A stretch of 64,000 nucleotides of DNA from Sideroxydans sp. CL21 (GTDB lineage: Bacteria; Pseudomonadota; Gammaproteobacteria; Burkholderiales; Gallionellaceae), in contig NZ_LR699166.1 of NCBI RefSeq assembly GCF_902459525.1, positions 3,112,501 to 3,176,500 on the forward strand. Reading direction: 5' to 3'. The translations under genes were made by a program, and so were the position numbers. This document shows, in pieces, positions 14,141 through 22,235 of this stretch (the first letter of the stretch is position 1; every line of letters begins with the position of its first letter). The notes under the pieces are model-generated. The model did not search any database. It was not told the origin of the DNA and worked only from the letters and a program-made list of their open reading frames with translations.

Positions 14141-16354
14141 TTAGAAATCCCAGCGCAGACCTGCCGAATAGAACAGGCTGGCAATATCGGTAGTCACCTG
14201 CGGGCCGCTCGTATTGATTTTCTGATAGCTGAGGTCCGTATCGAAAGTGAACCGCTCGCGGAAGCGATAAGAGCCGCGCAGCATAGGCATGATTTGTGTC
14301 GTTGTGCCGCCGAATTGATCCTTGAAGCTGGACATCTGCAGTGTCGTATCCAGCATCCAGCCGTCATTGATCTGGTTGTGGTTGTAGAAGAATGCTGTGT
14401 GGCCGTTCACTGTGCCGCTGGAACTCAAAGTGAGGCTCGCCGACCAGATGTCTCCCTGCTTGTAAAGGCTGCTCCCGATGACTTGCCCGGTCACGCTTCT
14501 TTCCAATCCTCGCCCCGGCGTGGTTTGTACAAAACCTTGGGTTGTTTGCGTCCCCGTGCCCTGAGATATCGGCAAACCGGTAAGCGGATCTATCGTCTGT
14601 CCGCTGCTCCCCAATCCTGTCGTGTTGGTCAGGCGGAAGTCGCCGCCAACTTGCCATTTTTCGCGGACGGGAACAGTGATGCCGACTTGCCCCATATTGG
14701 CAGTTGCGGTGCGCGCCATGGCGAGATCGCGCAGGCTGCTGACCGACATGGTTTGCAGCAAATCATTGACCGACGATGTGCTCGCTCCGTTCAACGCATT
14801 GCGGACACTCAGGGAAGGAGTCTTGCGATGATCCAGCATAAAACTGAAGGTGCTATCGGGCATCAGGGACAACCCTTTGGTCATGCCCATGAATTGGGCC
14901 GCATTCACCGCATTGAAATAAGTATCGTAGTCCAGCAGTCCGTATGCGTTTCTCTTGTCGTCGAAATACCGGTATTCCGAGCCTATCGCACGCCGGTCGA
15001 GCGTGCCCTCCACCGTTTGGTTGATGCCATAGAACGAAAATGCACCCCTGTCCACGCTGGCGCCAAAGAATCTCGGTTTCGGGCCCGGCGAATAATCCAC
15101 CAGGGCGCCTGCCACGCTGTTCACGCGCAGGTTTTGAGCATCGCCATATGAAGCTGCCAGACCGTCGAATAGCCCCATCACTCCGCCCCCCATGGATGAC
15201 TGTCTCCCCACACGCACCAGATAATCCTGAGTGCGACCCTTGATTTCGCCATAGGCTGCAATTGCCCGATTGTAGCTGGGTTGAGTGGACAGGAAATTCT
15301 TGGTATTCACATCCCTGAACACCAAGCGGCTGTCATAGTTTTCATTTCTGTAACGCTCCGATGCATCCACGCTGGTGATGAGCATGGATTGATCTGTCAT
15401 CGATTGCGAATCAGTCGTCGTCACACCGTTGAAAGTGTTGGTCGTCGCGACGTTGCTTCTGCCGTAGTAATAGCGCGAGGATATGCTGCCGAATGTCGTC
15501 ACGCTGGGGGCCTGTTTCTTGTCCCCGCCGGCAGCCGTCATCAGAGAGTTCGCGCTCCCGTTGTCCGACAACCCTTCCAAACGTTGAGCCACGCGTGCCG
15601 CACCCGCACTCTCAGGATACAGTCTCAGATACAGGTCGTATTCGACTTTCGCCTTGTCGGGCTGTCCGCTGCGTTCGCGTGCGACCCCGATCCACTCCTG
15701 ACCCTGCTGGGTGTAATCGTTGGGTGGCAGCAGCAGCAATTTGTTCAGCACTTCGACCGCCAGATCGTTTTGTTTGGCAGCCAGCGCATCGCGCGCTTGC
15801 ATCATCAATGCGCGCGCTTGCCGGTTTATCTCTGCTGCTGCGACTTCCTCCGGCTTCAATATCGTTCCGGCTGCAGGCTTCGCTTCCGCTCCTATCGTCG
15901 GCAGAAAAGGCAGGGGTGCATTGCTCACCGGCTGTTTGTCCGGACGGATGGTAATCAGGAAACTTCGTCTGTCCTTGCCGGGTTCCACACTGAATTCCGC
16001 TTCGCGAGAAAACTCGATCACCAATTTCGGTTTGGTCAGCTGATCGCGCGTGGTTACCGTGAAGCCCGGAATGAGTTTGGACGGAGGGGATTTGCGCACT
16101 TCGTCATCCACCCAGGCCTCTGTGCTTGCCACATCCTGCACACGCTCATAATAGATTTCGAGCGTCTTGCCGTGGCTCTCCGGAAAATGGCGCAGGTACT
16201 GCACCGGACCGGTCAACCGAATGGTGGCAACGACCCCCTTGTTCTGGAATTCCAGTTCTACGTCATCCAGGGGTTGCGCATCCGCAACAAAAGGAAGAAG
16301 GGTCAGCAATAGACCGCCAAAAAAACTGTGCCGCTTGAAGAAATGTTTCCTCAT
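14141..16354 (-). CDS. Large outer-membrane beta-barrel protein of the cytochrome cluster (putative porin)
   Basis: Predicted outer-membrane protein of ~737 aa from ATG 16354. It has a signal peptide ending ADAQ, an N-terminal domain of beta strands (~25-150), a helical TPR-like segment (~175-250: ALMMQARDALAAKQ, LNKLLLLPPNDYTQQGQEW), then a long stretch of alternating hydrophobic/polar strands ending in Phe (LFYSAGLRWDF), the usual barrel C-terminal signature. No haem motif is present. It is the last gene of the operon with the 12- and 24-haem cytochromes, so the natural reading is the barrel of a porin-cytochrome conduit across the outer membrane. That role is inferred from position. Roughly twenty strands could fit, but I could not model them. 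The 120-bp gap before it holds nothing recognisable. Confidence 0.75.
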   Translation of the reverse strand: MRKHFFKRHSFFGGLLLTLLPFVADAQPLDDVELEFQNKGVVATIRLTGPVQYLRHFPESHGKTLEIYYERVQDVASTEAWVDDEVRKSPPSKLIPGFTVTTRDQLTKPKLVIEFSREAEFSVEPGKDRRSFLITIRPDKQPVSNAPLPFLPTIGAEAKPAAGTILKPEEVAAAEINRQARALMMQARDALAAKQNDLAVEVLNKLLLLPPNDYTQQGQEWIGVARERSGQPDKAKVEYDLYLRLYPESAGAARVAQRLEGLSDNGSANSLMTAAGGDKKQAPSVTTFGSISSRYYYGRSNVATTNTFNGVTTTDSQSMTDQSMLITSVDASERYRNENYDSRLVFRDVNTKNFLSTQPSYNRAIAAYGEIKGRTQDYLVRVGRQSSMGGGVMGLFDGLAASYGDAQNLRVNSVAGALVDYSPGPKPRFFGASVDRGAFSFYGINQTVEGTLDRRAIGSEYRYFDDKRNAYGLLDYDTYFNAVNAAQFMGMTKGLSLMPDSTFSFMLDHRKTPSLSVRNALNGASTSSVNDLLQTMSVSSLRDLAMARTATANMGQVGITVPVREKWQVGGDFRLTNTTGLGSSGQTIDPLTGLPISQGTGTQTTQGFVQTTPGRGLERSVTGQVIGSSLYKQGDIWSASLTLSSSGTVNGHTAFFYNHNQINDGWMLDTTLQMSSFKDQFGGTTTQIMPMLRGSYRFRERFTFDTDLSYQKINTSGPQVTTDIASLFYSAGLRWDF

Positions 16355-16474
16355 TCTTACTCCTGACCAACTTTTAAAATAAAGCATGTCCGCTTCCTAT
16401 TACACGGGCCCTGGAATTTCTCACGCACGCCGAATTGAAGGCCACGCCAATGCGGTATCCTCTGTCCGGGCAAC

Positions 16475-17533
16475 TCAATTCCAGTTTATATAAGCAGTTC
16501 CAGTTCTACCTGCGGGTGCGTGGCACGAACTACTCGAGCAGGTTACGTTACCCTTGTGACTACTTTGTTGCGGCGGATGATTAGGTGCGTAGACAACGGT
16601 ACCTGTGTAATGACAGGAATTGCATGCCGTCTGCGATAGATAGGCATGCAAAGCCGCGCCCGTCGCCACTGTCGTCCCGGTATGACAAACGGTGCAGGGG
16701 ACTCCGGGAGTATAGGTAACATGCCCTGCCGGAGTAGCACCCAACGCGCCGGCCCAACTCACTGAATTCATGGTTGTGGTGGTATGGCAGTCTGTGCAAT
16801 TTTGGGTTGCGGTAATGGCGACATGGCCCGCGAATGAGGCAGGCCCCTTTGCATCGGCATCGTTGTGGCAGCCATTGCAAAGCTTGGTTGGCGCGATATG
16901 CCTTGGCGTCCAGGAAATAACGTTATGACAATCGTCGCATGCATTGTTGCGCATAAGGTTATAAACATGGGTCGCTGTCGACCTGTAATACTGGTTGGCA
17001 CCCTGAACATGGCAGCCCGCATTGGCACAACTACCCGGTATCACACCGACGTGATTCCAGCTTGCGGGAAGGAAGGAATAGGATCTGTGGCAACTGTCGC
17101 AAGAGCCGGTCGCTTTCAAACCGACATTGTGGCTTGTTGGCCTGCCGGTCGAGATCATTCCGTTGTGACAGGTTGCGCATTGCCCAGGCAGTGCGGTTCC
17201 GTGGTTGTAGCGCGCCCCGAGGAAGGTGAAAGTATTGAAGTGGCAGGACTCGCAGGGTGCGTCGGTCACAATGTGGTTGGTGGGCTTTGGTGTCGCCACC
17301 ACGCGCCTTCCCAGCGCGTGGCAGTTATCACAATTCCTGGGGGTGCCCTTGAACACGCCCGCAACGTGGCATATCTCGCAGGCGGCCGTGGCATGCCCAC
17401 CGACCAGAGGAAAGCCTGTATTCATGTGATCGAAGTCGCGCCCGGCCATTTGCGTGTCGGCCATCGCCTGTAGTGCAAATACCGCCAACATCGCGGCAAG
17501 CACTTTGCCCAATACCCGTCCCGTTCGTTTCAT
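16475..17533 (-). CDS. Dodecahaem c-type cytochrome, secreted
   Basis: Exported multihaem cytochrome, 352 aa from ATG 17533, signal peptide ending LQAMA. I count ten CxxCH motifs (CEICH, CDNCH, CESCH, CATCH, CDSCH, CDDCH, CNGCH, CTDCH, CTVCH, CNSCH) plus two longer CX4CH motifs (CANAGCH, CSSSSCH), giving up to 12 haems. Almost every motif is preceded 10-20 residues earlier by a lone His (TNH, YNH, TSH, WNH, PRH, AGH and others, 13 in all), enough for bis-His ligation throughout. It lies between the 24-haem protein and the barrel protein in one operon. It lacks a lipobox, so it is either periplasmic or surface-exposed through the barrel. The length per haem (~29 aa) indicates a wire-like electron carrier without an enzyme domain. 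Confidence 0.9.
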   Translation of the reverse strand: MKRTGRVLGKVLAAMLAVFALQAMADTQMAGRDFDHMNTGFPLVGGHATAACEICHVAGVFKGTPRNCDNCHALGRRVVATPKPTNHIVTDAPCESCHFNTFTFLGARYNHGTALPGQCATCHNGMISTGRPTSHNVGLKATGSCDSCHRSYSFLPASWNHVGVIPGSCANAGCHVQGANQYYRSTATHVYNLMRNNACDDCHNVISWTPRHIAPTKLCNGCHNDADAKGPASFAGHVAITATQNCTDCHTTTTMNSVSWAGALGATPAGHVTYTPGVPCTVCHTGTTVATGAALHAYLSQTACNSCHYTGTVVYAPNHPPQQSSHKGNVTCSSSSCHAPAGRTGTAYINWN

Positions 17534-17577
17534 GTTTTCTCCCATAATTTAACTGCCGCTGCCGAATCGTCTGGCAG

Positions 17578-19359
17578 CTATTTCTTGCGTGTAGTTACCA
17601 CACCCATCTTGATCTGCTTCCAATCATTACCTTCGTGGCAACGTTCGCAGCGGTCGCCAAAATTGCCGTTGTGCACGTCATCGCGATCATGGCAAATGCC
17701 GCACGCTGTGGACAACAGCACTTTTTTATCCATCGGCTTCTTGTGACAGGCATAGCATTTGCCGCCGATTTTTTTATGCGGACCGTCCAGCTTGAAGCTG
17801 GTTTTATTGTGGTCAAAATCCCATGCCTTCCAGTCCCGCGTGTTGTGACAGATCTGACATTCAGTCGCCAGTTTGCGTTTGTGGACATCATCCTTTTCGT
17901 GACACGACCAGCAATCCGACCTGGCATCCTTGAACGTCACTGCAGCGTGACATTTTTTGCATTCCACCAGCAGGTGACGTCCAAGCAGCGGAAACGCCGA
18001 CATTCTGTTGTGGTCGAAGGTTGTCTTGTTCCAGGTTTGCGCATCATGGCAAGACTCGCACTTTTTGCCTTCCTGCCCCTTGTGCTTGTCGTCCTTCTCA
18101 TGGCAGGAAACACAATCGCTTGGCAATTTGTCCTTATACACATCGCCCTTGTGACATGCCGCGCACTTGGCTTGCCTGTGTTTGCCTAACAGCGGATATT
18201 TGGTTTGTTTATCATGATCGAAGAGAACTTCCTTCCAGTCTTTTTCAACGTGGCAGGACTCGCATTTCGGCCCGAAATTTCCTTTGTGCTTGTCGTCCTT
18301 CTCGTGACATGAATTGCACTTGGTCGGCAACTTGTCTTTATAGAGATCGCCCTTATGGCACGCCGCACACTTTGCCTGTTTGTGCTTCCCCAACAACGGA
18401 TATTTAGTGGCTTTGTCGTGATCGAAGGTGATTTCTTTCCATTCCCTTTCGACGTGACATGTATCGCACTTCTGTCCGAATTTCCCCTTGTGCGCTTTGT
18501 CGTCATCCTTTTTGTGGCATGCACTGCAGACCTTGGGCGTATCCTTGAACTTGTTGTCGATGTGGCACTTGTCGCACTTTACTTCCCTGTGCTTGCCCAA
18601 CAGGGGGTACTTGGTCTTCTTGTCGTGATCGAACAGGATTTCCTTCCAGCTCTTTTCCGTGTGGCAAGACTCGCACTTTGGTCCAAGCTTGCCCTTGTGC
18701 TTGTCATCTTTCTTGTGACAGGAATTGCACTGCATGGGTGTGTCTTTGAACTTGTTGTCGATGTGACACTTGGCACACTTCACTTCCTCGTGCTTGCCCA
18801 GCAATTTGAACTTGGTCTTGTTGTGATCGAAAGCGGTAGTCTTCCAGTCTTTTTCGACATGGCATTTTGCACAATCCGTACCCAAGCCGCCCTTGTGCTT
18901 GTCGTCTTTCCTGTGGCAATCGTTGCAGTAAGCCGGAGCTTCACGGAATTTTTTTTCAGGCTTGTGACAATCCGTGCACTTCACCTTTTCGTTCAGGTGT
19001 GCGCCCTTTAATGGATAGTCGGTTTTGGTATGGTCGAATTTGGCATGATCGAATTCGGCAACCTTGGCATCCCGTCCCTTGTGGTCGGTATGGCACTCCT
19101 TGCATTCCTTGGCTGCATCCAACCGGCCATGGAAGCCGCGTTTTTCCTTGAGATCTTTGCCGATATCCTTATGGCAGTCGGCGCACAATTGCGATTGCGC
19201 TGCCTTGTCGAATTTCTTGTGACACTTTTCGCAATTCTCTTCTTCCTTGGCATGGCTCTTGATGACTTCGCCCGGCATCAGCAATTTATTTGCTTGTGCC
19301 TGGAAGGGAAGCGCGAACAAGAGGCTCGCCAAGGCGAGAATGCGGAGGGTCGTCGTCAT
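17578..19359 (-). CDS. 24-haem periplasmic c-type cytochrome built of three-haem repeats
   Basis: Exported multihaem cytochrome of 593 aa, signal peptide ending AQA. I count 24 CxxCH motifs. The body consists of tandem ~65-residue units, each with three haem motifs and recurrent blocks NKFKDTP, CHKKDDKHKG, ESCH-EK-WKE, FDHDK and YPLLGKH. Each unit also keeps three other histidines (DKH, FDH, GKH), matching its three haems as distal ligands. It is extremely Lys/Asp-rich and soluble in character. The gene follows the cytochrome-b-like gene by 16 nt and precedes the 12-haem gene. An extended periplasmic wire between inner and outer membrane is the simplest role (inference). The DNA repeats make this stretch prone to recombination and assembly error. 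Confidence 0.92.
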   Translation of the reverse strand: MTTTLRILALASLLFALPFQAQANKLLMPGEVIKSHAKEEENCEKCHKKFDKAAQSQLCADCHKDIGKDLKEKRGFHGRLDAAKECKECHTDHKGRDAKVAEFDHAKFDHTKTDYPLKGAHLNEKVKCTDCHKPEKKFREAPAYCNDCHRKDDKHKGGLGTDCAKCHVEKDWKTTAFDHNKTKFKLLGKHEEVKCAKCHIDNKFKDTPMQCNSCHKKDDKHKGKLGPKCESCHTEKSWKEILFDHDKKTKYPLLGKHREVKCDKCHIDNKFKDTPKVCSACHKKDDDKAHKGKFGQKCDTCHVEREWKEITFDHDKATKYPLLGKHKQAKCAACHKGDLYKDKLPTKCNSCHEKDDKHKGNFGPKCESCHVEKDWKEVLFDHDKQTKYPLLGKHRQAKCAACHKGDVYKDKLPSDCVSCHEKDDKHKGQEGKKCESCHDAQTWNKTTFDHNRMSAFPLLGRHLLVECKKCHAAVTFKDARSDCWSCHEKDDVHKRKLATECQICHNTRDWKAWDFDHNKTSFKLDGPHKKIGGKCYACHKKPMDKKVLLSTACGICHDRDDVHNGNFGDRCERCHEGNDWKQIKMGVVTTRKK

Positions 19360-19375
19360 TGATTACATCCGGAGA

Positions 19376-20272
19376 TCAGTAGGCATGAACTGCGTACACA
19401 TGATAAATCGCGCTGAAAACCATCATATACACCAGCGGGATATGGAAGACATGCCACCACGAGAACAGGCGTTCATAAGTATGGAATTGCGCCGCATCAC
19501 GCACTGCCTTGAGATAAGCCCTGATCTTTTCCTGATAGTCCAGGTACATTCGTCCCATGTTCGCCAGTTGCGCGTCACTGAAGTTGTTTTGCCTGGACTG
19601 AGTCTGCATAACCTGATACAACTCTTTAGGCAGTGAGCGCGAAAGTGAAAATGCCTGTAAACCAACCTTGATGAACTGGATGAAGTTGTAGCTGGACACT
19701 TTACTGTATTGCTCGCTACGAACACGAAAGTCCTCCATGGCTTTTTCGATATCCGGCGCAAAACTGAACATGGATTTGACATCGCCTGTCTGCTCCATTT
19801 CTGCCTGCAACTCTTTGAGCGTGGCCTGCCTGCCGTAAAGACCGTGATGAATCTTGGTATAGAAGAGACGCCCGAACGTGCCGCTGCCGGATACCAAAAG
19901 CATGCACAGCATTGCTACCGCCGCATTGGGAGAGCCGACAGGATGGATATACGGGATGTATACGTGATAAGTGGAGTGAAAGATGATGGTCAGCGGGCCC
20001 AAAATACCCAATACCATGTGCCACTTGAACCACCCCGGCAGCACGCCTATTTTTTGGAATACTTTGACACGCTTGCGCAAAGGGTAAAGCAGCAAAATCA
20101 GCATCATCAAACCACCAGCCAGTCCAAGGTTATATCCAAAATCAAACAATTTCTCGCCAGGTTTGAATAGTTTTTGCGGGTAAAGCAAGAAATATCCCCC
20201 AAACGTTATTGCACCTACAAAGCCGATAAATACTAGCCACCGCAAATGCTCTGATTCCTTATTTGTCTTCAT
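19376..20272 (-). CDS. Cytochrome-b-like inner-membrane protein of the electron-transfer cluster
   Basis: Inner-membrane protein, 298 aa, first gene of the multihaem operon. Hydrophobic segments lie at ~11-29, 46-64, 84-106, 116-133 and ~270-292, with a soluble helical domain (~145-260) between the last two. Histidines within or at the edges of membrane segments (His85, His99, His103, His110; and several in the last segment, as in WWHVFHIP and AIYHVYAVHAY) are suited to b-haem ligation. The layout resembles ferric-reductase/cytochrome-b561-type proteins, but I do not recognise a named family. It may pass electrons between the quinone pool and the 24-haem protein encoded next to it (inference). 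The 200-bp region upstream is shared with the divergent ferredoxin/FAD gene. Confidence 0.8.
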   Translation of the reverse strand: MKTNKESEHLRWLVFIGFVGAITFGGYFLLYPQKLFKPGEKLFDFGYNLGLAGGLMMLILLLYPLRKRVKVFQKIGVLPGWFKWHMVLGILGPLTIIFHSTYHVYIPYIHPVGSPNAAVAMLCMLLVSGSGTFGRLFYTKIHHGLYGRQATLKELQAEMEQTGDVKSMFSFAPDIEKAMEDFRVRSEQYSKVSSYNFIQFIKVGLQAFSLSRSLPKELYQVMQTQSRQNNFSDAQLANMGRMYLDYQEKIRAYLKAVRDAAQFHTYERLFSWWHVFHIPLVYMMVFSAIYHVYAVHAY

Positions 20273-20472
20273 CCTTGCTTCCGAATATAAGTTGCCTCAA
20301 CGATTCCGACTAATTTTAACGGGAATCTCACAATATTCAAACTGGCTATTTGTCTTCCATGGCTTCGAAGCTTAGAATAGTTCGAATTAACTGTAAGTCG
20401 TCTTCTCGGTCTTTTCCCAGAAAGCATTTGGAAATAACCGCATCTATTTGTTAATAAATACTTTTTCCTTAG

Positions 20473-21768
20473 ATGAATATTGAATCCTTTGCAATCTATC
20501 TGGCACCCCTCGCGCTGATCGTGTTCTTCTATTTGCGCGGACGGTACAAGCATGAATCATCGGCCGTCGAAGTGCTGACCGAATCCATAGAGGCCGGATT
20601 GACCGAGCCTTCCTCCTTGCACCCCGAAATCAACCCCAACCTTTGTATGGGTGCAGGCAGTTGCATCACCGCCTGCCCGGAGGGTGCGATCGGCATGATC
20701 AAGGGCAAAGCGGTGTTGATCAATCCGACCCACTGCATCGGTCACGGAGTTTGCGCGCCCGCATGTCCTCATGACGCCATCAAGCTGGTGTTCGGTACGG
20801 CTAAACGCGGCATGGATATCCCGCAAGTGAATCCCAACTTCGAGACCAATGTACCCGGCATCTTCATCGCGGGAGAATTAGGCGGAATGGGCCTGATTCG
20901 CAAGGCAGCCACCCAAGGCATCCAGGCGATGGAATCCATCGCCAAGCTGAAAGGCGGAAATAACCCCTACGATGTGGTCATCATCGGCACCGGGCCTGCC
21001 GGTTTGGCAGCCACGCTGTCGGCAATTGAAAATAAGTTGCGATATGTCACCATCGAACAGGAAGAAGCACTCGGCGGAGCCATCTTCCAATACCCGCGCA
21101 ACAAGATCGTGATGACGGCGCCGGTAAAGCTGCCCTTGGTAGGTAAAGTACACTTTCAGGAAGTCAGCAAGGAAAAGCTGCTCGAATTCTGGCAAGGCAT
21201 CATCCGGCAGACCGGCTTGAAACTGAATTTCAACGAGCGCATGGAGAACATTACCAAGACTGACAAAGGCTTCACCGTTAAAACCACCAAGGGGTCTTAC
21301 GAAACACGCGCTGTGCTGCTTGCCATCGGTCGTCGCGGTACGCCGCGCAAACTGGGCGTACCGGGAGAAGATCTGCCTAAAGTCGTATACCGCCTGATCG
21401 AACCCGAGCAATACAAGAATATGCATGTGCTGGTGGTGGGTGGCGGAGACAGCGCCCTTGAAGCAGCCATGGCCATTGCCGATCAACCGGGAACGACCGT
21501 CACCCTCTCCTACCGCAGCGACGCTTTCGGGCGCGGCAAACCGAAAAACCGCGACCGCCTGAAATTAATGTCGGAACAGGGACAGCTCACTGTGCGCCTG
21601 AAATCGAATGTGAAACTCGTCGAGAAAGACAAAGTCACTCTTGAACAGGAGGGGAACATGCTTGTGATCCCCAACGATGCGATCATCGTTTGTGCAGGCG
21701 GTATTTTGCCCACGCCATTCCTCAAGCAGATCGGTGTGATCGTCGAATCCAAGTTCGGCACTGAATGA
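20473..21768 (+). CDS. Membrane-anchored ferredoxin/FAD-NAD(P) oxidoreductase
   Basis: Three-part protein of 431 aa: one N-terminal membrane anchor (~5-21), a dicluster ferredoxin-like domain (~50-105), and a thioredoxin-reductase-like flavoprotein domain with FAD motif GTGPAG (172-177) and NAD(P)-type motif GGGDSA (323-328). Both iron-sulfur motifs are unusual: C58-x5-C64-x3-C68-P and C88-x5-C94-x3-C98-P. The second Cys of the normal CxxCxxCxxxCP pattern is Ala61 in one and His91 in the other. No CxxC redox pair is seen in the flavin domain. It is transcribed divergently from the cytochrome operon, which suggests transfer of electrons to or from NAD(P)H (inference). ATG 20473 has no strong Shine-Dalgarno sequence but gives the natural anchor. 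Confidence 0.85.
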   Translation: MNIESFAIYLAPLALIVFFYLRGRYKHESSAVEVLTESIEAGLTEPSSLHPEINPNLCMGAGSCITACPEGAIGMIKGKAVLINPTHCIGHGVCAPACPHDAIKLVFGTAKRGMDIPQVNPNFETNVPGIFIAGELGGMGLIRKAATQGIQAMESIAKLKGGNNPYDVVIIGTGPAGLAATLSAIENKLRYVTIEQEEALGGAIFQYPRNKIVMTAPVKLPLVGKVHFQEVSKEKLLEFWQGIIRQTGLKLNFNERMENITKTDKGFTVKTTKGSYETRAVLLAIGRRGTPRKLGVPGEDLPKVVYRLIEPEQYKNMHVLVVGGGDSALEAAMAIADQPGTTVTLSYRSDAFGRGKPKNRDRLKLMSEQGQLTVRLKSNVKLVEKDKVTLEQEGNMLVIPNDAIIVCAGGILPTPFLKQIGVIVESKFGTE

Positions 21769-21822: not shown

Positions 21823-21899
21823 TGGCGGAGTGGACGGGACTCGAACCCGCGACCCCCGGCGTGACAGGCCGGTATTCTAACCAACTGAACTACCACTCC
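21823..21899 (-). tRNA. tRNA-Asp (GTC)
   Basis: 77-nt cloverleaf on the minus strand with encoded CCA. Acceptor stem GGAGTGG pairs with CCACTCC; the T-arm contains GGTTCGAGTCC; the anticodon loop CTGTCAC gives GTC for aspartate. Confidence 0.95.
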
Positions 21900-21977
21900 C
21901 AAAACCATTTGTGGCGAGAACCGCACAGTCCGACAAATCCTGTACTCCGTCTGCACGGATACAAACAACCTGACGAT

Positions 21978-22001
21978 AAAAAAGCTTGCGTCGTAGCAAG
22001 C
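21978..22001 (-). terminator. Terminator after tRNA-Thr
   Basis: On the minus strand, stem GCTTGC / GCAAGC with a 6-nt loop followed by six T. It lies between tRNA-Thr and tRNA-Asp, so tRNA-Asp probably has its own promoter in 21900-21977. Confidence 0.7.
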
Positions 22002-22012
22002 CCTATTGGTAT

Positions 22013-22088
22013 TGGTGCCGCTTGTCGGATTCGAACTGACGACCTACCGCTTACAAGGCGGTTGCTCTACCAACTGAGCTAAAGCGGC
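22013..22088 (-). tRNA. tRNA-Thr (TGT)
   Basis: 76-nt cloverleaf with encoded CCA. Acceptor GCCGCTT pairs with AAGCGGC; D-arm TAGCTCAGTTGGTAGAGCA; anticodon loop CTTGTAA gives TGT for threonine. Confidence 0.95.
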
Positions 22089-22096
22089 GGTGAAAC

Positions 22097-22172
22097 TGGT
22101 GGGTCGGGCGAGATTCGAACTCGCGACCAACGGATTAAAAGTCCGCTGCTCTACCGACTGAGCTACCGACCC
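22097..22172 (-). tRNA. tRNA-Lys (TTT)
   Basis: 76-nt cloverleaf with encoded CCA. Acceptor GGGTCGG pairs with CCGACCC; anticodon loop CTTTTAA gives TTT for lysine. It lies 8 nt upstream of tRNA-Thr in the same transcript direction, so the two are probably processed from one precursor. Confidence 0.95.
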
Positions 22173-22235
22173 CTCCCAAAAGGGAGCGCGCATTATACGG
22201 GTTTGACCTCGACTGTCAAACGAACCAGCAGAGGA

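Follow-up and report, generated by a model that had tools for sequence, protein, structure and literature searches.

In a 64,000-nucleotide stretch of the genome of Sideroxydans sp. CL21 (the window), an operon of four genes encodes an inner-membrane protein (IMP), a 24-haem cytochrome, a 12-haem cytochrome and a porin, and a divergent gene next to it encodes FADFD, a membrane-anchored flavoprotein with iron-sulphur (Fe-S), FAD and NAD(P) elements. By its motifs and haem counts the operon is a porin-cytochrome cluster of the kind termed PCC3, a predicted electron conduit whose four-gene architecture is in print; the novelty lies in the flavoprotein part alone. The partnership of FADFD with the PCC3 IMP is well supported by their co-occurrence and linkage across genomes, and we consider it probable, with some reserve, that the two form a two-part, NAD(P)H-linked inner module of a PCC3-type trans-envelope conduit. 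The gene content, the motifs, the topology signals, the barrel model and the co-occurrence and linkage were observed directly. FADFD is a core PCC3 partner that alters the likely mechanism, and the electron path and direction set out below are hypotheses.

Co-occurrence and Linkage of FADFD and IMP

Both genes were followed through three overlapping samples of whole genomes, at the level of the order (300 genomes), class (369) and phylum (324). In the order sample a strong IMP match had E <= 5e-40 and an FADFD match E <= 1e-60; in the class sample the cut-offs were 1e-58 and 1e-100, respectively. Twelve weak matches (E 1.5e-6 to 8e-4) were dropped from the 29 order genomes that matched IMP, and 10 (E 9e-20 to 4e-11) from the 52 in the class sample; six of these 10 are PCC4-like (L158-L163) and another, in G390 (L166), lies beside a 7-haem protein. 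For FADFD, 17 weaker genomes of 60 were dropped from the class sample, including the fused PCC4-like proteins, a remnant in G489 and a contig-edge fragment that is the only FADFD of G599, and two of six from the phylum sample.

Strong IMP and FADFD are present in exactly the same 17 of the 300 order genomes. Since most of these 17 FADFDs had been seen beside an IMP before the profile was made, the new information in this sample is the absence of FADFD from the other 283, and the class and phylum samples test presence as well as absence. FADFD was found in 41 of the 42 class genomes with a strong IMP, as well as in two without a detected IMP, and the same four phylum genomes have both proteins. 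Over all samples, FADFD accompanies the strong IMP in 58 of 59 distinct genomes, and the 59th (G489) has the remnant. Fisher tests, in which relatedness is ignored, gave p = 4e-28 (order sample) and p = 7e-51, and the co-occurrence in the order and class samples rules out FADFD as a chance neighbour. The gene set as a whole recurs across genomes, beyond chance.

The two genes are also physically close. Among 45 class IMP loci, a count that excludes the window's genome and G489, FADFD lies on the same contig in 40 (within 1.5 kb in 34, within 10.8 kb in all 40) and on other contigs in the remaining five; in G385 the cluster is broken up by the assembly, and the pieces with IMP and FADFD each stop at a contig edge. 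All five class genomes in which the strong IMP is present in exactly two copies have FADFD in two copies as well. The linkage survives rearrangement of gene order: FADFD is divergent to IMP in 49 of the 72 loci with room, and is otherwise placed upstream on the same strand, after the gene for the 24-haem "wire" or beyond the porin, with L107 an example in which it follows the wire gene and the longest open reading frame (ORF) begins 5 bases on. IMP is present in 63 and some PCC3 gene in 71 of 80 named FADFD loci, which are the best 80 of 569 confirmed relatives and are biased because the FADFD profile was built from PCC3 neighbours; for the 29 with wide flanks the figures are 27 and 29. Four genes appear under two ids (L044/L067, L045/L078, L048/L079 and L055/L126) and were counted separately in the haem, locus and motif counts. 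Co-occurrence and linkage together strongly support the oxidoreductase as part of the system, as a first-pass annotation of the window had proposed.

The FADFD hosts named here include Gallionellaceae, methylotrophs, Rhodoferax and metagenome-assembled genomes (MAGs) labelled Nitrospira, Nitrospinaceae and Omnitrophota. Locus L127, from Rhodoferax lacus, contains FADFD together with a PCC3 porin. PCC3 and FADFD occur together in MAGs labelled Nitrospinaceae (L097), Nitrospira (L121) and Omnitrophota (L139), labels and binning being taken as given; all three fall outside the Proteobacteria named for PCC3 in the text of PMC5566968.

Anatomy of the Flavoprotein

FADFD had been described as a divergent membrane-anchored ferredoxin/FAD enzyme, and this description holds: an N-terminal hydrophobic helix, with positive residues after it, precedes two Fe-S motifs and the FAD/NAD(P) domains, and Pfam gives matches to Pyr_redox_3 (E 2.4e-42) and to Fer4 families. 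Both Fe-S motifs are present in 95 of 96 FADFD relatives (92 distinct), the remaining one being cut by a contig end. In the window's protein the usual second cysteine is replaced by alanine in motif I and by histidine in motif II; across the relatives the site in motif I is serine in 54, cysteine in 28 and alanine in 13, and the site in motif II is histidine in 95 of 95. The conserved histidine of motif II, taken with these replacements, suggests a conserved cluster that is either His-ligated or held by three cysteines.

Alignments show a circular permutation in FADFD. The stretch 116-156 pairs with residues 269-309 of the 789-residue L158 flavoprotein, which is unpermuted, at a score of 103 (shuffles 29.6 +/- 4.1), and with the L159 flavoprotein at a score of 86 (shuffles 29.7 +/- 4.3), and from about residue 164 FADFD aligns with the start of its unpermuted relatives. 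With the genome's own thioredoxin reductase the element scored only 32 (27.6 +/- 4.8), so that the case for permutation rests on the closer relatives L158 and L159; with residues 279-293 of the solved YpdA there was a very weak second match (0.0 bits). The same permuted element occurs at the N terminus of a 777-residue protein (L164:7908-10241), fused there to membrane and Fe-S (Fer4_5, Fer4) domains; no PCC3 gene was matched in the L164 stretch.

The best NCBIfam match of FADFD is YpdA (TIGR04018), at 164 bits under a cut-off of 339.9. We take the active-site cysteine of YpdA to sit in GxGPCG; the GxGPxG motif is present in 96 of 96 FADFDs and a cysteine at the YpdA site in 0 of 96. A disulfide reductase of YpdA type was rejected on both counts, the score and the cysteine. 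YpdA uses NADPH, and a conserved arginine after the second Rossmann motif, common to FADFD and YpdA, hints at NADPH for FADFD as well.

The Inner-membrane Protein

The operon's membrane protein had been called b-type-like, a term that holds by motif: the window IMP has four histidines in two WX3HX13H motifs (residues 81-99 and 273-291) and an SGXXG at residue 130. Both WX3HX13H motifs are present in all 74 IMP family members, and His-85, His-99, His-277 and His-291, the two motif tryptophans and Ser-130, Gly-131 and Gly-134 are invariant in all 74. A cytochrome b Pfam domain was not called for the window IMP in a Pfam scan. Searches of solved structures by fold and by sequence returned helical bundles and the like, with no ferric reductase or bc1 among the matches shown, and pfam01794 is not among the best 25 of the 50 Pfam families matched by the 74 members (E <= 1).

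The AlphaFold2 model of IMP has a predicted local distance difference test (pLDDT) score of 86.6, and in it helices 115-160 and 233-297, with membrane bounds judged by hand, extend beyond the membrane into a helical stalk. Manual inspection of the sequence and the helical model points to five transmembrane (TM) segments, a crude hydropathy count giving only two. With the same hand-judged bounds, lysine plus arginine amount per 10 residues to 1.95 at the N terminus, 2.53 in the TM2-TM3 loop and 1.66 in the TM4-TM5 stalk, and to 0.63, 0.64 and 0.07 on the opposite side. By this positive-inside pattern the TM4-TM5 stalk would lie in the cytoplasm, with one His pair close to each membrane face.

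The Operon as a PCC3 Cluster

PCC3 was predicted by He et al. in 2017 as a set of four genes with a quinone link, its IMP having about 300 residues, five TM segments, SGXXG and two WX3HX13H (PMC5566968), and its periplasmic cytochromes 22-39 residues per haem (PMC5566968, PMC10734462). A survey of Gallionellaceae gives PCC3 cytochromes of 21, 24 and 27 haems in the periplasm and of 10-35 haems outside the cell, 12-haem partners included (PMC10734462). In the window a porin stands beside multihaem cytochromes, the wire has 24 haems at 24.7 residues per haem, and the 298-residue IMP bears the motifs; motifs, haem counts and residue-to-haem ratio therefore fit PCC3 and make the operon one more member of a cluster type already known by prediction. 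The earlier suggestion of a porin-cytochrome cluster with very large cytochromes, known from Gallionellaceae, is thereby specified as PCC3 type (PMC5566968, PMC10734462).

The wire has 24 CXXCH motifs, 48 cysteines and 49 histidines, and its motifs form eight sets of three with a period of about 68 residues; its orthologues in PCC3 loci are 47-73% identical. Among 67 uncut orthologues (those cut by a locus end excluded, four loci counted twice), the number of CXXCH is 24 in 34, 21 in 18 and 27 in 10, with rarer counts of 18 (two), 33 (one), 23 (one) and 10 (one, L075, where the gene looks split). Because the count is a multiple of three in 65 of the 67, from 18 to 33, the wire appears to change in length by tri-haem units that are added or lost whole. 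The second cytochrome had been assigned 12 haems: its 10 CXXCH stand, and the total of 12 is reached only when two CX4CH are included. It occupies the slot of the PCC3 extracellular cytochrome and by that slot is its predicted counterpart; in relatives the slot holds proteins with about 9 to 62 CXXCH. The partner cytochromes of L050, L052 and L054 are single proteins of about 1,680 residues that each carry 62 CXXCH and one CX4CH.

The 748-codon protein had been put forward as a barrel with a TPR-like segment, and both features appear in its AlphaFold2 model (m369da0b1c1f1; alignment of 45 sequences, mean pLDDT 87.0, predicted TM-score (pTM) 0.58), with barrel strands at residues 295-747 and TPR helices at 179-275. 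TPR_9 is matched by 41 of 45 family members (E <= 0.1), and TPR proteins came up as profile matches among solved structures. Foldseek matched the model to the usher FimD and to porins, at best with E 3.0e-9 and with low TM-scores. A porin of MtrB/MtoB type was rejected, the window porin having no PF11854 (MtrB_PioB) match at E <= 0.1; PF11854 is not among the best 25 of the 31 families matched by the 45 porin members. SPOR domains bind peptidoglycan, and the porin arm may thus tether the porin to the cell wall or keep the wire in place. Nine of the 45 PCC3 porins match such a domain besides the TPR arm. The true start of the window porin is probably an internal ATG near 16354, which would give a signal-peptide-like N terminus (MRKHFFKRH...).

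PCC4-like Clusters

Nine loci (L158-L163, L165, L169 and L176) have an IMP-like gene directly beside one for a protein of 789-896 residues, and L168 has the same kind of large protein with no IMP detected. In all 10 of these large proteins, two cyclic-nucleotide-binding domains accompany the FAD/NAD(P) domains and the Fe-S domains (pfam13247 among them). The IMP-like protein of L169 is cut by a contig end; the other eight all have SGXXG and both WX3HX13H motifs. PMC5566968 describes two PCC4 subgroups, of which only one has a pfam13247 Fe-S gene upstream of its IMP, so that the nine loci are probably PCC4 or close to it. Two further, distant IMP-like genes adjoin a decahaem protein (L060, with both motifs) and a 7-haem protein (L166); since most of the nine loci were chosen because both genes had matched, 9/11 is not a frequency. 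The PCC4-like cytochromes have 4-5 or 10 haems. A decahaem neighbour in L159 (L159:7280-9013) has an FHA domain, the only such one found. With their cyclic-nucleotide-binding and FHA domains, these clusters are possibly regulated by cyclic nucleotides and phosphorylation.

Proposed Electron Path and Its Alternatives

In the mechanism that we favour, FADFD on the cytoplasmic face would use its FAD and two Fe-S clusters for electron exchange with NAD(P)H and hand the electrons on to IMP, where putative b haems at H85/H277 (near the cytoplasm) and H99/H291 (near the periplasm) would carry them across the membrane, and the 24-haem wire would span the periplasm to the porin and the 12-haem partner. 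In its build the inner module would resemble a ferric reductase or NADPH oxidase split in two, and the quinone pool would be bypassed. We infer here the occupancy of the haem and cluster sites, the physical contacts, the preference for NADPH and the direction of the electrons. Electrons leaving NAD(P)H for the outside run downhill and along the membrane potential, and those going from Fe(II) to NAD(P)+ run against both, so that export, as the thermodynamically easier direction, is favoured.

Several observations weigh against such a module. Nine of the 80 named FADFD loci have no PCC3 gene in the flanking DNA examined. The window's own genome, with three IMPs and one FADFD, is the exception to the matched copy number: neither its other complete PCC3 (L043) nor its orphan IMP (L042) has an FADFD nearby. 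G489 retains only an N-terminal FADFD remnant, beside its IMP; the FADFD of G333 is interrupted by a stop codon; and G397 and G476 carry FADFD without a detected IMP (G397 is in 560 contigs, and G476 is 72% complete, with its FADFD near a PCC3 porin and cytochrome). The distant IMP-like genes of L060 and L166 have no FADFD-like protein in the DNA examined, the fold search with IMP gave no informative match to ferric reductases, and the authors who described PCC3 proposed a link to quinone (PMC5566968).

That published model, which we regard as unlikely, takes the IMP for a quinone-active cytochrome b through which an extracellular donor, e.g. Fe(II), feeds the quinone pool, with FADFD in a secondary or parallel role. 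He et al. proposed the link from the HX13H motifs (PMC5566968), and it agrees with the IMPs of the window's genome that have no FADFD nearby, as well as with the textbook quinone activity of di-haem b proteins of the bc1 and hydrogenase type; the near-complete co-occurrence and linkage of FADFD with IMP argue against it. Published expression evidence on PCC3, as far as given in the text of three papers, is mixed. In S. lithotrophicus ES-1 both PCC3 clusters are downregulated on Fe(II)-citrate versus thiosulfate (PMC8788666), which does not support a role in iron oxidation in that strain and counts against the quinone model, and at the protein level one cluster is at a similar level in all samples and the other largely undetected (PMC12016527). 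In CL21 expression of both PCC3 copies exceeds the mean, and in copy 2 (24/12, like the window) the IMP is upregulated in iron-oxidising cells (PMC12442390), in favour of the quinone model.

The same anatomy as in our preferred export path could also run inward and uphill, with extracellular electrons turning NAD(P)+ into NAD(P)H for CO2 fixation; the driving force would be the membrane potential or a hypothetical bifurcation at FADFD. Iron oxidisers need NAD(P)H, as textbooks have it, and many of the hosts are Gallionellaceae, a family with iron oxidisers (PMC10734462). We nevertheless hold this route to be quite improbable: by standard potentials the electrons would move against both redox and membrane potential, the Pfam scan assigned no ion-pump family to any of the five proteins, and the hosts include methylotrophs and Rhodoferax too. 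Least probable of all, in our estimate, is that FADFD serves the conduit as a maturation, repair or redox-sensing factor and is no electron-transfer partner, for although its flavoprotein relatives include disulfide reductases and linkage alone is no proof of electron transfer, FADFD lacks the YpdA cysteine in 96 of 96 cases and has its own two Fe-S motifs and membrane anchor, and the nine PCC4-like loci couple another FAD/Fe-S protein with an IMP.

A wider and distinctly doubtful extension of the export path is that NAD(P)H drives electron export in PCC3 and in at least some PCC4 clusters, through a shared 5-TM di-haem plus FAD/Fe-S module that bypasses quinone, in which case the assumption of Fe(II) uptake would be backwards. 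Many bacteria that cycle iron or grow as methylotrophs have PCC3, which the literature cites as a putative iron oxidase; a conserved NAD(P)H/FAD/Fe-S partner would make its direction and inner partner directly testable. If the proposed path is true, the conduit would be coupled to soluble reducing power rather than to quinones, and PCC3 and PCC4 would be linked at their inner-membrane ends. The partner offers a simple assay, NAD(P)H-dependent haem reduction, to set beside the data that we found on PCC3, which are at the expression and protein level only.

Layout of the Locus and Its Genome

The five ORFs of the first-pass annotation, its four-gene operon and the divergent enzyme were all borne out at the positions in Table 1. 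Inside the operon the intergenic gaps are 16, 32 and 87 bases, in the order of transcription. Aligned with 10 relatives, the region between IMP and FADFD has no strongly conserved block, and its promoter-like matches are weak, on both strands, and no more than expected by chance over the region scanned. The promoter scan as such was near chance (8 matches, 6.5 +/- 2.9 expected), as was the terminator scan (16, with 10.2 +/- 3.8 expected). The downstream neighbours of the porin are sucCD-like genes, and tRNA genes and queC lie beyond FADFD. The tRNA genes, three in number (Asp, Thr, Lys; minus strand), are downstream of FADFD at window positions 21823-22219, and with them is a perfect TTGACA-16-TATAAT match at 22219-22192.

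TABLE 1. Features of the PCC3 locus and of FADFD in the window
Feature	Position	Strand	Basis or remark
Four-gene PCC3 operon	14141-20272	minus	order of transcription: IMP, 24-haem cytochrome, 12-haem cytochrome, porin
IMP, 5-TM putative di-haem b inner-membrane protein, 298 residues	19376-20272	minus	motifs, AlphaFold2
24-haem periplasmic cytochrome, 593 residues, signal-like N terminus	17578-19359	minus	CXXCH count
12-haem cytochrome, 356 residues, signal-like N terminus	16475-17545	minus	10 CXXCH + 2 CX4CH
PCC3 porin, 748 residues	14141-16387	minus	AlphaFold2 model, Foldseek
Porin periplasmic arm: beta-rich domain (residues 40-147) and TPR helices (179-275)	15563-16270	minus	AlphaFold2 secondary structure
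Porin transmembrane barrel, residues 295-747, about 22-24 strands (counted by hand)	14147-15505	minus	AlphaFold2
IMP-FADFD divergent intergenic region, 200 bases	20273-20472	no strand	from coordinates
FADFD, TM-anchored Fe-S/FAD/NAD(P) oxidoreductase, 431 residues	20473-21768	plus	divergent from operon
Two Fe-S motifs of FADFD, residues 58-69 and 88-99, each C-x5-C-x3-CP	20644-20769	plus	motif scan
Permuted FAD-domain element, residues 116-156, ahead of GxGxxG, not C-terminal	20818-20940	plus	alignment
FAD/NAD(P) two-domain part, residues 164-430	20962-21762	plus	Pfam; solved YpdA 7a7b, E 4.7e-41

The genome of the window is a single contig of 3.77 Mb. Its second full PCC3 (L043:8922-17284) has 24- and 29-haem cytochromes, so that the haem pairs we count are 24/12 and 24/29; the copies reported for CL21 are 24/14 and 24/12 (PMC12442390). 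Two separate MtrB/PioB (PF11854) porins lie elsewhere in the genome. The orphan IMP (L042:8848-9813) is 65% identical to the window IMP, has no cytochrome, porin or FADFD nearby, and comes after two genes identified by inspection, one with a GGDEF motif and one like fliR.

Comparison with Known Systems

The locus shares with published PCC3 the porin, the large periplasmic cytochrome, a second multihaem cytochrome in the slot of the extracellular one and the 5-TM IMP with SGXXG and two WX3HX13H; it differs in the fifth conserved protein, of FAD/Fe-S/NAD(P) type, and in a porin arm that carries TPR and, in some members, SPOR. By search terms, no FADFD-like PCC3 component was found in the text, figures and supplements aside, of PMC5566968, PMC8788666, PMC12016527, PMC13386937, PMC10734462 or PMC12442390. 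In the text of PMC10734462 "ferredoxin" stands in other contexts at 12 of 13 occurrences and "flavo" is absent; in that of PMC5566968 "flavo" and "ferredoxin" are absent and "oxidoreductase" is used six times, not every context being covered. By title and abstract, we found no further open-access paper that describes the flavoprotein. With PCC4 the locus has in common an IMP with the same motifs and, as in the nine PCC4-like loci, a FAD/NAD(P)/Fe-S neighbour, whereas the PCC4-like flavoprotein is unpermuted (L158, L159) and has two cyclic-nucleotide-binding domains.

MtrCAB, MtoAB and PioAB consist of a porin plus a multihaem cytochrome spanning the outer membrane, and the locus resembles them in this combination; it differs in a porin without a PF11854 match and in a wire of 24 haems, not 10. 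The bacillithiol disulfide reductase YpdA/Bdr is the closest solved flavoprotein to residues 165-430 of FADFD (7a7b, E 4.7e-41), whereas FADFD is, by alignment, circularly permuted, lacks the cysteine, and has Fe-S motifs and a TM anchor. In NADPH oxidases and ferric reductases, NAD(P)H and FAD are inside and two haems lie across the membrane. No ferric-reductase Pfam or fold match was seen for IMP among the matches listed; the likeness lies in the HX13H helices, which PMC5566968 relates to this family (FRD, pfam01794). The proposed inner module would differ from these enzymes in being divided between two genes, with Fe-S clusters between and a cytochrome wire as the acceptor.

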